A stretch of 64,000 nucleotides of DNA from the NCBI RefSeq assembly GCF_000487995.2, contig NZ_CP097562.1:803001-867000 (forward strand), read 5' to 3'. Position 1 is the first letter of the stretch, and each line of letters starts with the position of its first letter. The notes beneath the pieces are model-generated. The model had not been told where the DNA came from. It saw only the letters and a program-made list of their open reading frames with translations, and did not search any database. This stretch comes from Mucispirillum schaedleri ASF457 (GTDB lineage Bacteria; Chrysiogenota; Deferribacteres; Deferribacterales; Mucispirillaceae). This document shows, one piece after another, positions 40,002-64,000 of the stretch. A program made the position numbers and the translations under genes.

Positions 40002-40022
40002 AAGGTGGGGGGGGGGAAAATG
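40002..40022 (+). promoter_or_regulatory. Ribosome-binding site with a G10 homopolymer next to the start codon
   Basis: AAGGT at 40002-40006 is followed by ten G (40007-40016), three A and the ATG at 40020. The G run separates the AAGG core from the start by 14 bases and can itself pair with the anti-Shine-Dalgarno sequence. Slippage in the run would change ribosome-binding-site spacing. Confidence 0.7.
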
Positions 40023-59476: not shown

Positions 59477-60195
59477 TTAATTATTTTTTAATTCATATTT
59501 TATATCTTGGCTAAAATTATTAATCACTGGAGTATCATAAGGTGTATTAGGATCTAACTCAATAACATCATTACTTGTTTTTTTCATACGGATAACAGTA
59601 TCTGCTGGCATAACAGTTTTATCCGTTACCCTGCTAACTACTATTCCATCTTCTGCAACAGTAAAATTAAATGTATTTTTATCACTTTTTGTTTCGTCAA
59701 CTAATGTTTTTGCACTTCTGCCATATGTTCCTTTAATGTCATTACCAGCTGCAGCATTAATAGTAGTCTTACTTATTGCACTACTTGGTACTGTCGGAAA
59801 CTCTGTAAAATTATATGTTTTATCTGATGCAACAGATTGTATAATGGAAGAAGTATCAAATACTCCACCATTAATTTGAACTTTTGATATAACTTTAACT
59901 GAACCATTATCATTAACTTTGATTGTAGCTTGTCCTTTATGCTTAACTCCATCAGTATCTGGTTTATTACATTTTTTAGCCTCTGCTCCAATATATGTTG
60001 CAACCATAGAACAATCTGTTGTTAATGTTTCTACCTTAGCATCAACATAGAAAAACTCAATATTATATGTCCCTTCCAAAGACTTAAGTGTTACAGGGTC
60101 TGTTAAGTCTATACCACTGTCACTACTGGAATCATCACTGCATCCAGTAACTAAAAATACAAGTAAAATACTTGTTAAAATAAAAACTTTTTCAT
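59477..60195 (-). CDS. Surface lipoprotein, start codon one base out of frame (phase-off or broken)
   Basis: The ATG at 60195, seven bases after GGAGG, opens MKKFLF and hits a stop after six codons. One more A in the A5 run right after ATG would give MKKVFILTSILLVFLVTGC, a textbook lipoprotein signal peptide with lipobox VTGC, continuing without interruption for about 240 residues. The mature protein starts with a Ser/Asp-rich linker (SDDSSSDSG), then a beta-rich domain with two Cys. The last part (residues about 100-200) has no known family. The present frame is open only from a TTG at 60079, which would remove the signal. It has a strong promoter with a C10 tract and a clear terminator. Either a phase-off gene or a recent pseudogene. 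Confidence 0.7.
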
Positions 60196-60223
60196 TGTAT
60201 TCCTCCGTTAAAAAATTTTTGCC

Positions 60224-60251
60224 ATTATAACGGGGGGGGGGATTTTGTCAA
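60224..60251 (-). promoter_or_regulatory. Consensus sigma70 promoter with a C10 tract in the spacer
   Basis: On the minus strand, TTGACA (60246-60251) and TATAAT (60224-60229) are both perfect. The 16-base spacer between them includes ten consecutive C (60232-60241). The -10 lies about 30 bases before the lipoprotein ATG. Loss or gain of one or two C would move spacing away from or to the 17-base optimum, the mechanism known for Neisseria porA and opc. Confidence 0.8.
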
Positions 60252-60377
60252 TTACAATCAACAATATTCAACAAAATATAGTTATTTGTTAAATTTTAAT
60301 ATTTTTCGGACATTACGGACACTTATATTTTTATTCTCCATATTATAGCTGATAAATTACTTTTTAGGAGCAATAAT

Positions 60378-60935
60378 ATGACAAATATGCAAAACTTAAT
60401 TGAAAGAATAAGAATAAAAATTAATGATACAGCTTCTTTTGAGTTTCAAGATAATGAGCTTTTATCATATATTCATGAAGGATTATCTATGCTTGAAATG
60501 CTGATGTTATCTAATAAAGTGCAGTTTAATATTACATATCTTTACACTGCTTCATCAATATGCCCTGTGCCAGAAGATATGCTTGAAATACATAAAATAG
60601 TATCTGATAACAAAGAAATGCCACTTAAAGATGTAACTGATTTATCCTATGGTTATTATATTTTAAATAATAGTATTATTCTTCCATGTGCTAATGCTGA
60701 AATATATTATATTAAGGAATTTGAAAGATGTAATATTAGTGATGATATAAATCTTCCAAATATTTATATAGAGTATCTTTATAATAATGCAGTAATCAAA
60801 GCCCTTTCAAGATTAGAGTTTAATATGGAAAATGAAAAAAATGAACTTATGCAGCTTTCTTCTTTAATTATTAAAACTGCACTTCATAAAAACAGCATAT
60901 ATCAAATGAAAAGATATAACGGGTATGCTTTATGA
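60378..60935 (+). CDS. Phage head-tail connector/adaptor-like protein
   Basis: A 185-residue helical protein. Layout and motifs (LIERIRIKINDTASFEFQDNELLSYIHEGL at the start; FNMENEKNELMQLSSL near the end) resemble small adaptor proteins that join portal and tail in phages such as P22 gp4. It is preceded by TTAGGAGC and overlaps the next gene by ATGA. No portal, capsid or terminase gene is nearby. Assignment by pattern only; a structure search would test it. Confidence 0.5.
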   Translation: MTNMQNLIERIRIKINDTASFEFQDNELLSYIHEGLSMLEMLMLSNKVQFNITYLYTASSICPVPEDMLEIHKIVSDNKEMPLKDVTDLSYGYYILNNSIILPCANAEIYYIKEFERCNISDDINLPNIYIEYLYNNAVIKALSRLEFNMENEKNELMQLSSLIIKTALHKNSIYQMKRYNGYAL

Positions 60936-63079
60936 AAAAATCATCATATCATTCAAAAAACAGTGTATTAAAACTATATAAACCAATAGGTGGTATGTGT
61001 AACACCATAAGTGGCGAATATATAAAAGATAATCAGGCTTGCAGTATAAGTGGTGTTATATATAATGAAGATACAAATACATTTCAAGGCTCACCAGCTT
61101 ATAAATCAGTATCTTCTTTTGCAGGCAGAAAGTTTGCAAGGCTTTTCAATGTAGAATATAACGGAAAAAATGCTGTTTTTGCAACTTATGCAGGCGGCAT
61201 TGCAAATATTACTGAAAATAAATATTATCAAGTAGAAACAGGTATAACACCAACTGATATTATATATAACCAAGACGGGCTTTATATTTCATCTTCATCA
61301 AATGTATATCATCTAAATCCAAATGGAGAGCTTACTAAAATAGCTTTTTCATTTGCACCATTTATGTGGCAGAGAATATCTGCAAGGCAGAGTGTGGATA
61401 CTCTTACAAATGCAGCTGCTTATTATGGAGATAAAATATATTTCAGTGACAGCCGCGGAACTGGTTATATGTCTATAGATGGAAAAAATGTAAAAATATT
61501 AAATCATGAAATAAAAGTAATTGAATTTTTCCCATGCAGCAATACTCTTTATGCCTGCGATGCAACTGATATATATACAATATCGGGAGATGAATTTATA
61601 CACTTTTTAAATTTTTCACATCTTGGTTTAAAAGTCAGAGTGTGTGCATCTACTGCTTACAGCTTATTAATTTTAGATTACAATACAGCTTATGAAATAT
61701 ATGAGATAAATACTTTAACAAAAGCAATTAAAAAATATAATGTTAATGCTTTAAAAGGACTTGGCACTTACGGCATAAAATATTTAAGGGTTATTGATAA
61801 CAAGTTTTATTTATTAGTTAATGAAACTGATGCACTGTTTTCAAATAATACTGCATCTCTTTACAGGCTCTCATTTAACGGCAAAGAATATAATATTGCA
61901 GAAAGATTATTTGAAAACTATACCATAAAAAATTTTTTACAAGATGTTTTTTATATCAATTCTAAACTAATATGCTATTTTGGCTCAATTAATGAAAACT
62001 CTGCATTAAATGATACAATAGAGCTTTATGAATGCAGCAGGGAAATGTTAGTCTATCTTGATTATTCAAACAGTCCTGCAAATGCTGCAGCTGCTCAAAA
62101 ACTTTCTGTTAAAGGAAACAGGCTTTATTGTGCAAATAATTATGGCATGTATTATGTTGACATTTTACCATCAGATGAAAATATCCCATGTCTTTTAGTG
62201 CAGAATGGCAGGCTTATAGTGCCGCAGAACTCTAATTTATATTTCAGTGGTGCAGGTGATTTTTATAACTGGTCATGGAATACTGACAGTGACGCACAGT
62301 TTATAGAAATTGGATATAAAGACGGCGGCAGAATAATTTATACTGCCCTTGTGCTTGACAGTATTATTGTTTTTAAAGATAACGGCAGTATATACAGGCT
62401 TGCAGGCAGTTATCCTTACTGGACTGTATCAAAACTTGGCGAAATAGATAAACTTACCACAAAAGCTATTGTATATGGCTCTGAAATCATTTTTGGAGCA
62501 TCTTTTGGCATAAAAAAAATAGGAGTTACAGAATATTATGGTGATTTTTTCTTATCTGATTACCAGCAGTATATTCATGACAAAAATATATCAGATGTAA
62601 GCCTGTGTTCAGAAAGAAACACTATTATTTTTATAAATAATGAATATATTTTTGAATACAGCAGTATTTTAAAAGGATTTACTGTTTATAAAAATAATTT
62701 AACAGATAAATTAATGCAGATTATTGAAATATATGAAAATAATAATACATATTCCAGCTATGGATTAGATATAAATGGCAGGCTTTATAAAGCAGATAAA
62801 AATATGCGTAACAGCATAGATGTAAAATATAAAGAAATTAAAAACAATCAAGATATTTTAATTAAATCAATTACTGTTTTTACACCAATGTTAAAAACTA
62901 ACAAAATATTTAAATTAAGTATAAATGAATATAATAACACATTTACTTTAAAGGCTGATAGAATACGCCATAAATATTTTATTTTAAAAAGATTAAATAA
63001 CTTGCAAATAAAATTATCCCATAATGGTGATTTTTTTATAGATAATATTTTTATAGAATACTCCACTATTGGAGAATAA
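60932..63079 (+). CDS. Phage tail/stabilisation-like beta-propeller protein
   Basis: A 715-residue protein made of repeated short beta strands. NLYFSGAGDFYNW (about residues 434-447), SIIVFKDNGSIYRLAG and EIIFGASFGIKKIG match the propeller body of podovirus tail-tube or P22 gp10-like proteins, in which a (Y/F)FS-x-x-GD-x-x-(D/N)W motif and an FF-x-x-GS(I/V)Y motif are frequent. There is no signal peptide. Overlap with the upstream gene indicates a coupled operon. The Asn/Ile-rich composition matches the host genome, arguing for long residence. Confidence 0.6.
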   Translation: MKKSSYHSKNSVLKLYKPIGGMCNTISGEYIKDNQACSISGVIYNEDTNTFQGSPAYKSVSSFAGRKFARLFNVEYNGKNAVFATYAGGIANITENKYYQVETGITPTDIIYNQDGLYISSSSNVYHLNPNGELTKIAFSFAPFMWQRISARQSVDTLTNAAAYYGDKIYFSDSRGTGYMSIDGKNVKILNHEIKVIEFFPCSNTLYACDATDIYTISGDEFIHFLNFSHLGLKVRVCASTAYSLLILDYNTAYEIYEINTLTKAIKKYNVNALKGLGTYGIKYLRVIDNKFYLLVNETDALFSNNTASLYRLSFNGKEYNIAERLFENYTIKNFLQDVFYINSKLICYFGSINENSALNDTIELYECSREMLVYLDYSNSPANAAAAQKLSVKGNRLYCANNYGMYYVDILPSDENIPCLLVQNGRLIVPQNSNLYFSGAGDFYNWSWNTDSDAQFIEIGYKDGGRIIYTALVLDSIIVFKDNGSIYRLAGSYPYWTVSKLGEIDKLTTKAIVYGSEIIFGASFGIKKIGVTEYYGDFFLSDYQQYIHDKNISDVSLCSERNTIIFINNEYIFEYSSILKGFTVYKNNLTDKLMQIIEIYENNNTYSSYGLDINGRLYKADKNMRNSIDVKYKEIKNNQDILIKSITVFTPMLKTNKIFKLSINEYNNTFTLKADRIRHKYFILKRLNNLQIKLSHNGDFFIDNIFIEYSTIGE

Positions 63080-63096
63080 ATGAACGGAGAAAAATT

Positions 63097-63432
63097 ATGA
63101 GTTTTTGGGAAGGATTTAATAAACTTCTTTTTGGAGAAAACAAGGCAGGCTCAAAACAGAAAGAGCAGTATGATAAATTAGCAAATTATGATAACAGAGT
63201 GGAAGATTTTGAAAGTTTAAGTGGAAATGTTATAAATGAAATGGCAAACCGTGGAATAATCAATTCTTCTGTTACTGGAAAAGCCTTAGGCAGTGCTGTG
63301 GCAGAAGCTGAAAATAATTACTGGAACGACCAAATGAAATTATTAGGTTACAGCTATGGCACAGATAAAAAAGGTATAGCAGAAGATTTATCATCAACTT
63401 TTACAAAAAGCTTTGTAAAAAGCATATTTTAA
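63097..63432 (+). CDS. Small phage-like structural protein
   Basis: A 111-residue protein starting MSFWEGFNKLLFGENKAGS, with the segment MANRGIINSSVTGKALGSAVAEAENNYW. Short proteins with a RG(I/L)xNSS motif occur beside tail or internal virion proteins in podoviruses. Third gene of the phage-like run, 17 bases after the propeller gene, GGAGAAA ribosome-binding site. After its stop only repeats follow. Confidence in coding is fair, in function low. Confidence 0.5.
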   Translation: MSFWEGFNKLLFGENKAGSKQKEQYDKLANYDNRVEDFESLSGNVINEMANRGIINSSVTGKALGSAVAEAENNYWNDQMKLLGYSYGTDKKGIAEDLSSTFTKSFVKSIF

Positions 63433-64000
63433 AGCATTTCATAAAAAAATGTCCGCCCTGCAATGCAGAGCGGACAATATATCAATGCAGTTACTTCACA
63501 GTATGGCAGTAAATATTCCAGTAATTTACTTTCAGACGGGACTTCCTGTCCCTACATTAGTCTTACTGAGCCTAAAAGGCGAAGTATATTGATTTATCCT
63601 TTATTTTCAAATTCGTCCATGAATTTGAAAAAATACGCTTGGTCGCAGTAAATGCTCCCGTCGCTTACTTTCAGACGGGACTTCCTGTCCCTTACATTGT
63701 CATACCGAGCCAAAGGCGAAGTATATTGATTTATCCTTTATTTTCAAATTCATCCATGAATTTGAAAAAACACGCTTGGTCGCAGTAAATGCTCCCGTCG
63801 CTTACTTTCAGACGGGACTTCCTGTCCCTTACATTGTCATACCGAGCCAAAGGCGAAGTATCTATAATAGTAATGTTTTATAGTTCCTTTGTTCGTTGAT
63901 ACTCACTTAGGAATACATATTTTAGTATTTCAAAAATGTATGCAGTATAAAAATGTTACTTCATTAAAAAATATACAAAGTTAAATAAAGTATTCATACA
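63433..64000. repeat. 137-139-bp tandem repeats and right arm of the inverted repeat
   Basis: No gene. Two full units and a partial third start at 63526, 63665 and 63802 (periods 139 and 137). Each unit contains CTTTCAGACGGGACTTCCTG with a GGGAC...GTCCC hairpin, the dispersed repeat core (AAAGGCGAAGTAT), and a perfect hairpin AAATTCATCCATGAATTT. The last copy joins the inverted-repeat arm 63840-63957. A short open frame at 63463-63651 is translated repeat only. Confidence 0.75.

Follow-up and report, generated by a model that had tools for sequence, protein, structure and literature searches.

A three-gene, phage-tail-like cassette lies at positions 60378 to 63432 of the window analyzed here, a stretch of 64,000 nucleotides from the chromosome of Mucispirillum schaedleri ASF457 (contig NZ_CP097562.1, bases 803001 to 867000). 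In our interpretation, this cassette provides the tail of a particle that derives from a podovirus and has been domesticated, most probably as a gene transfer agent (GTA) with its genes dispersed over three apparently co-regulated operons; the sequence evidence leads us to give this reading a probability of roughly 0.75. The finding is larger than first noted, since the cassette would be only one third of the system. The initial annotation had described it as isolated and had offered three options: a prophage relic, one locus of a split GTA, or a domesticated tail device. The second is now strongly favored, because the head and packaging genes and the lysis genes are found at two other sites, under a promoter box shared with the cassette. 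A maintained particle is very likely on the grounds of gene content, dispersal, co-regulation, and constraint; the delivery of random host DNA by that particle is the less certain step.

Three dispersed operons and their promoter box

The genome of the window (G000) is a single contig of 2,347,083 bases, in which the tail operon starts at 863378. According to the list of open reading frames (ORFs), the cassette comprises three intact forward ORFs of 185, 715, and 111 amino acids (aa), the first two of which (60378-60935 and 60932-63079) overlap by 4 nucleotides; the tight, uninterrupted operon first described is exactly where it had been placed. Over 300 shuffles of the cassette (3,055 bases), the longest ORF arising by chance had a mean of 69 aa and a maximum of 129 aa, so that the 185- and 715-aa frames are far beyond chance, and the reality of the 111-aa ORF, shorter than this maximum, rests on its conservation. 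Codon usage is host-like, as proposed, with the three ORFs at the 98th, 60th, and 47th percentiles of 43 host genes in the window. To the left, genes named by eye as ispG and znuA run in the opposite direction, and to the right, host-like genes resume after about 0.8 kb. No other phage-type genes were seen beside the cassette when the ORFs of the entire window and of the following 13 kb were read by eye; these were host-like, and a prophage concealed in the window was discarded as an explanation. The claim that head, portal, terminase, and integrase genes are missing therefore holds for the neighborhood but not for the genome, as terminase, portal, and capsid genes lie elsewhere on the same chromosome. 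The supposed isolation of the cassette did not survive, given the head/packaging and lysis operons found at two other sites with the same promoter box.

The profile and structure-prediction searches proposed at the outset related the first gene to phage structural proteins and the second to such proteins by fold. The first gene product (185 aa; 60378-60935, forward strand) is supported as a portal-to-tail adaptor, in line with the initial label. It matched SU10_adaptor (PF24175) with an E-value of 2.4e-4 and 22 bits, below the curated cut-off of 27, and seven of the nine members of its family gave weak E-values with this profile (best, 5.9e-6). All nine matched phrog_399, annotated as a structural protein (best E-value, 6.6e-8). 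With an AlphaFold2 model of mean predicted local distance difference test score (pLDDT) 75.3, Foldseek returned the tail of phage KHP30 first (E-value of 4.6e-8), followed by SU10 and others, and all 17 matches with E-values of at most 0.001 were phage tail, portal, connector, or virion entries. A profile search against the PDB also yielded a portal-adaptor match, weak at an E-value of 0.43. A second adaptor-like match in the genome (2210949; E-value of 3.4e-4) and its counterpart in G007 fell in an ORF that by eye resembles an efflux transporter, and they were rejected as chance.

The second gene (60932-63079, forward strand) encodes a predicted beta-propeller protein of 715 aa, which is probably the tail nozzle, of the P22 gp10 or T7 gp12 type, judging from this fold and its place after the adaptor. 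Its model has low confidence (mean pLDDT, 56.9); residues 142 to 413 of this prediction align with many propellers (Z up to 18.8), the PDB structural matches include T7 tail proteins, and the 50 viral fold matches shown include five under the name P22 Gp10 and five under that of tail tubular protein B. The gp10-like label thus stands at the level of the fold. The third gene (63097-63432, forward strand) encodes a protein of 111 aa in all eight aligned genomes, with 63 to 86% identity to the window's copy in the seven others. No family could be assigned among the eight members searched (best PHROG E-value, 0.012); by its position, it may be a minor tail or ejection protein. Profile searches of the PDB gave nothing useful for the nozzle or the 111-aa protein, and a pentatricopeptide-repeat chain listed for the latter at an E-value of 1e-9 was set aside, as it had no passing stretch. 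None of the three genes had a match at an E-value of 1 in a tblastn search against 50,697 phage records; the adaptor of G007 gave three weak matches, at chance level. Scans of viral contigs found a single contig, identical to G000 over the nozzle. This contig, IMGVR_UViG_3300005469_000610, has 37,626 bases and ends at the nozzle stop codon; by its length and the gene content of the window it would be almost wholly host chromosome, and its viral label may rest on the cassette alone.

The genome scan for capsid, portal, and terminase genes that had been recommended found all three on the same chromosome, in a head operon about 177 kb from the tail operon (G000 contig C1, 1043822-1050113). This operon encodes TerS, TerL, the portal, an 82-aa protein, a 228-aa protein that is scaffold-like (role by position), the capsid, and a 62-aa protein. 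TerS matched GP3_package (E-value of 5e-14), and TerL, located just before the portal, matched phrog_2 (E-value of 1.4e-40) and carries, as read by eye, a Walker-A-like GHGIGKS motif. The portal and capsid both exceed the curated cut-offs of SU10-type head families. The portal gene (1045862-1047556) matched SU10_portal (PF23899) with an E-value of 1.0e-124 in the genome profile search and its protein with an E-value of 6.3e-124 (415 bits; cut-off, 30), and the capsid matched SU10_MCP (PF17236) with an E-value of 3.9e-40 (138.6 bits; cut-off, 24.1). SU10_portal was matched in all seven genus genomes searched and in none of 14 control genomes. By tblastn, the closest phage relatives share about 49% identity with TerL and about 25% with the portal and the capsid, the latter reaching Pseudomonas phage PaP2. 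The classic families PF03237 (one of seven genomes matched, G000 not among them) and PF05065 (none of G000, G003, and G007) missed the head genes that phrog_2 and PF23899 caught. Besides TerL, the terminase-like matches in G000 were two short, low-scoring ones, one in a helicase-like ORF and the other at 1716557. A Big_2 protein directly after the operon (1050503-1052104), first counted with it, was removed as a member of a surface lipoprotein family, because its counterparts in G004, G007, G001, and G006 begin with a lipoprotein-like signal; this family is fast-changing, and the G000 copy has no such signal.

The lysis operon (G000 contig C1, 2173982-2175450), about 1.3 Mb from the tail operon, contains two spanin-like genes, a holin, and an M15-type endolysin. 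The holin (phrog_2073; E-value of 1.3e-16), the endolysin (phrog_465, E-value of 1.1e-33; Peptidase_M15_4, E-value of 2.6e-6), and the Rz1-like protein (PF23793; E-value of 1.8e-6) were matched by profiles, and a 122-aa membrane protein, coiled-coil-like, resembled an Rz-like spanin at an E-value of only 0.051. In G009 (contig C137), genes homologous to the lysis cassette (51% identity for the holin) stand near an ORF that by eye is integrase-like; they may be the phage counterpart of the domesticated set.

All three operons are preceded by a CGGACATWACGGACA-like box, usually with a -10-like hexamer 19 to 20 bp downstream. Ahead of the tail operon, the box is CGGACATTACGGACA (window 60307-60321, forward strand), a direct repeat of the form CGGACA-N3-CGGACA common to the head and lysis operons, and the hexamer TATTAT (60341-60346, forward strand) follows it by 19 bp, a spacing nearly fixed across the operons. 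Aligned upstream regions of the tail (nine genomes) and head (seven genomes) operons show the same element just before the -10-like hexamer. With up to two mismatches, CGGACATNACGGACA has four sites in G000, namely those of the tail and head operons, 2173907, which opens the lysis operon, and 173918, among unrelated host genes. The degenerate box RGACANNNYGGACA has exactly three sites in the 2.35 Mb of G000, one ahead of each operon. Over seven genomes it has 25 sites, of which 19 are at the operons and 6 elsewhere, the latter all inside ORFs. Only two operon promoters escape it, those of the tail in G001 and G007, which have a variant box. A hexamer within one mismatch of TATAAT occurs at a spacing of 19 or 20 in 21 of 23 upstream regions, compared with a mean of 1.4 and a maximum of 7 in shuffles. 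It should be considered that these regions are related by descent and hence are not 23 independent cases; the weight lies in the agreement of three unlinked operons, ahead of which the box is retained while the spacers diverge. A control with reversed patterns of the RGACANNNYGGACA and CGGACATNACGGACA type gives more sites than the patterns themselves, and it was not taken as a yardstick, as its base order differs. These results suggest that the three operons are, apparently, co-regulated.

Conservation, movement, and selection in the genus

The genus was represented by 10 genomes, seven of them at least 94% complete, with G002, G005, and G008 at 57 to 86% (G002 at 86%). All seven of the former carry the tail, head, and lysis modules, one of them (G006) with a broken portal, and the modules are present genus-wide at shared host flanks. 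The portal was found in 10 of 10 genus genomes, the nozzle and the capsid in 9 of 10 each, and the holin in 7 of 10, which are the seven most complete; the misses fall among G002, G005, and G008. Outside the genus, the nozzle was absent from 29 genomes and the capsid from 10, the holin appeared in 1 of 10 at 49% identity, and the portal in 5 of 40 others of the phylum with far weaker matches (E-values of 1.8e-9 to 5.8e-22). Sister genera of the same family had neither nozzle nor portal (five genomes) nor capsid (two searched). Across the genus, identity to the G000 copy is 84 to 95% for the holin and 90 to 95% for the capsid.

The cassette adjoins ispG in all nine genus genomes that have it, and its far flank varies. 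The tail and head operons are 177 kb apart in G000 and about 60 kb apart in G003, and the tail and lysis operons lie within about 28 to 30 kb in G001, G006, and G007, against 1.3 Mb in G000. Since the spacing varies among genomes carrying all the modules, these move independently and yet stay together in each genome.

Pairwise ratios of nonsynonymous to synonymous substitution (dN/dS; Nei-Gojobori) stayed far under 1 in each of the 11 module genes compared, at 0.11 to 0.33 for the tail genes (the same range for the 111-aa gene), 0.03 to 0.17 for the head genes (TerL, 0.03 to 0.13; capsid, 0.06 to 0.10), and 0.01 to 0.47 for the lysis genes, with the spanins highest. Values for host genes (ispG, znuA, and one that is dus-like) were 0.05 to 0.27. 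These ratios are rough, as synonymous distances (dS) exceeded 1 in many pairs, and two saturated pairs of the inner spanin (spanin_i) were dropped. Selection on the cassette had been argued from its long frames, and the low values of the tail genes agree.

Concatenated proteins of the tail, of the head, of the lysis operon, and of the host, the last from only two genes beside the tail locus, gave four trees that all separate G000, G003, G004, and G009 from G001, G006, and G007 at 100/100, and in all four G009 branches first within its group. G007 and G001, which are two species, show near identity at the tail locus and over 12 kb or more of its surroundings (dS mostly 0.02 to 0.34; 0.53 for the 111-aa gene), and their head and lysis operons and flanks differ by dS of mostly 0.4 to 1.6. 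We read this identity as a recent recombination tract and not as a separate origin of the tail genes. Ordinary contiguous prophages, unlike the dispersed modules, were also seen by eye in G003 (contig C3) and G006 (contig C14), where terminase genes adjoin others that are repressor-like, lysis-like, or structural-like.

Proposed working and competing explanations

In the proposed working, a regulator would act at the CGGACA-N3-CGGACA box just upstream of the -10 and turn on the three unlinked operons together. The head operon would provide TerS, TerL, the SU10-type portal, the scaffold-like protein, and the SU10-type capsid for procapsids, into which the terminase would package DNA. This DNA would be mostly pieces of chromosome, because the 14 genes are distributed over three sites far apart, and the ORF listings of G000, read by eye, showed no gene for an integrase, a repressor, or replication next to them. 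The adaptor would then dock on the portal, with the propeller protein as the nozzle of a short tail and the 111-aa protein participating; the lysis operon, by homology, would burst the producing cell; and the released particles may inject their DNA into kin. We lean, with less assurance than for the GTA reading itself, towards a fuller picture: an independently domesticated, short-tailed GTA in Deferribacterota, with three separately moving operons tied only by a dedicated promoter box, which would exchange chromosomal DNA among Mucispirillum in gut mucus and may be a source of multi-kilobase recombination tracts like that between the two species.

Several observations weigh against a dispersed GTA. 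The case is known from genes alone, with the particle, the packaged DNA, and the transfer as predictions. Among the module genes, no tail fiber, receptor-binding, or ejection protein was recognized, and the 111-, 82-, and 62-aa proteins are without family. The nozzle, capsid, and holin have no matches in G002, even though it is 86% complete; the portal frame of G006 is split in two pieces; and G008 has a truncated nozzle of 103 aa, behind which its contig shows no third gene. Assembly faults are possible in the last two genomes, of about 70 and 340 contigs, respectively. Additionally, the codon usage of the terminase is slightly atypical (5th percentile), and the branch order of the trees differs, the tail and its flanking genes joining G007 with G001 and the head and lysis genes joining G001 with G006.

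The alternative that survives best, which we nevertheless hold to be unlikely, keeps the same domesticated and co-regulated particle and places its benefit in killing or signaling towards relatives instead of gene delivery. All the signs of a maintained particle fit it equally. PBSX is a parallel: it packages host DNA and reportedly acts as a tailocin nonetheless. However, TerS, TerL, the portal, and the capsid are kept under strong constraint (see the values of TerL and the capsid above), and they would be needless for a pure tail weapon; moreover, the tail is by homology of the short podovirus type, from which no tailocin is known to be made. The same alternative has been raised for FpGTA of Faecalibacterium prausnitzii (PMC12946183).

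The broken portal of G006, the cut nozzle of G008, the variable far flank of the cassette, and the frequent rearrangements in the genus might instead indicate the decaying remains of an ancient prophage, split and without present function. This is very improbable in view of the dN/dS values, the long intact frames in the seven most complete genomes (except the G006 portal), the identities of the holin and capsid across the genus, and the box kept ahead of three unlinked operons despite spacer divergence. Equally improbable is that the operons belong to a phage satellite, or to a phage with its remaining genes elsewhere, whose particles would carry that element and not random chromosome. The contiguous prophages of G003 and G006 and the missing tail fiber gene are compatible with it, whereas in G000 the head-operon TerL is accompanied only by the two short terminase-like matches, PF03237 finds nothing there, PF05065 finds nothing in G000, G003, or G007, and the three unlinked sites have no integrase, repressor, or replication gene alongside. 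A functional prophage would have its genes for integration, regulation, and replication in one contiguous genome, and we found three dispersed operons with host flanks; a podovirus-type tailocin would be a tail without head or packaging genes, and here head and terminase genes share the promoter box and are conserved alongside the tail genes.

Returning to the window, a tandem repeat with a 137-bp unit (2.4 copies) lies just downstream of the cassette (63526-63861). A lipoprotein-like gene divergent from the cassette (59477-60240, reverse strand) and its apparent start are in different frames, and ten consecutive G (60232-60241) stand upstream of this gene, between it and the promoter box; it looks like a phase-variable surface gene. 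The window's only other G/C run of at least 7, also of ten G (40007-40016), is near the start of a 685-aa ORF and is possibly a contingency tract.

Comparison with known gene transfer agents and phages

The Mucispirillum genes are linked to SU10-type and related short-tailed phages by the SU10_portal and SU10_MCP families, by the adaptor fold, which is nearest to that of Helicobacter phage KHP30, followed by SU10, and by the tblastn match of the capsid to Pseudomonas phage PaP2. These phages have whole, contiguous genomes (KHP30, 26.2 kb with integrase and replication genes; PaP2, 43.8 kb), whereas the Mucispirillum structural genes are dispersed and have no integrase or replication gene with them. 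RcGTA and the other type I GTAs of Rhodobacterales are likewise made from domesticated phage genes that occupy several unlinked loci and are controlled in common, with GafA as the regulator. RcGTA is alphaproteobacterial and has a long tail of the siphovirus type; Mucispirillum, in contrast, has an SU10-type portal and capsid and a short-tail adaptor.

GTAs have been defined by caudoviricete-derived proteins that form caudovirion-like particles with mostly random host DNA inside, by endogenization, often at multiple loci, with genes that are not or cannot be fully packaged, and by vertical inheritance, co-diversification with the host, and delivery of the packaged DNA to other cells (PMC9662315). 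In Mucispirillum, similarity to such proteins, which this definition admits as a sign of their origin, is present at the level of genes, and the loci at 863378, 1043822, and 2173982 lie on one contig flanked by host genes. They are at least 177 kb apart in G000, and one headful could hardly hold them all. As to co-diversification, the deep split and the place of G009 agree across the trees, but the host tree has only two genes, both beside the tail locus, and one recent recombination tract is seen. BhGTA (VSH-1) of Brachyspira likewise has an intestinal host outside the Proteobacteria and is genus-wide; its sole terL lies outside the main cluster, and its gene order is not kept between species (PMC9662315). 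It consists of one 16.3-kb cluster, has a 65-nm flexible tail, and only its endolysin resembled phage genes in that analysis (PMC9662315), whereas the portal, capsid, terminase, adaptor, and lysis genes of Mucispirillum have clear phage relatives and are arranged in three operons.

A search of the full-text literature gave, among the matches listed, no report of a GTA or of such genes in Mucispirillum or Deferribacterota. In the accessible main text of the M. schaedleri genome paper (PMC5285517), neither "prophage" nor "gene transfer agent" occurs, and "phage" occurs in a reference only; the accessible text of a paper on the altered Schaedler flora (PMC9600240) has neither "phage" nor "terminase", and that of PMC7667829 does not name Mucispirillum. 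According to the accessible parts of the published accounts, very few GTAs have been reported outside the Alphaproteobacteria, the first podovirus-like one in 2026. If our reading is true, it would suggest that such phages have been tamed more than once and that GTA exchange is more widely used by gut bacteria. With the shared box, further genomes can be tested simply and the regulator can be sought directly, and as strain ASF457 belongs to the defined altered Schaedler flora (PMC9600240), particle production and transfer would be traceable inside an animal.

The closest published system is FpGTA, which is podovirus-like, organized in two operons, and carried, as in Mucispirillum, by a gut anaerobe; its head operon encodes TerS, TerL, portal, scaffold, and capsid, and additional structural genes and lysis genes form another operon that is not linked to the first, the distance being about 125 kb in one strain (PMC12946183). 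This likeness is one of description and not of sequence comparison, and the terms "promoter", "SU10", and "nozzle" are absent from the accessible main text of that paper (PMC12946183). FpGTA particles have been reported, along with proteomic data and a packaged DNA length of about 8.5 kb (PMC12946183), whereas the Mucispirillum system is a set of genes. The latter differs further in its phylum and in having three operons, with tail and lysis genes separate, that share a promoter box. It would thus be a candidate for a genus-wide GTA in a mouse-gut bacterium of another phylum than that of FpGTA.

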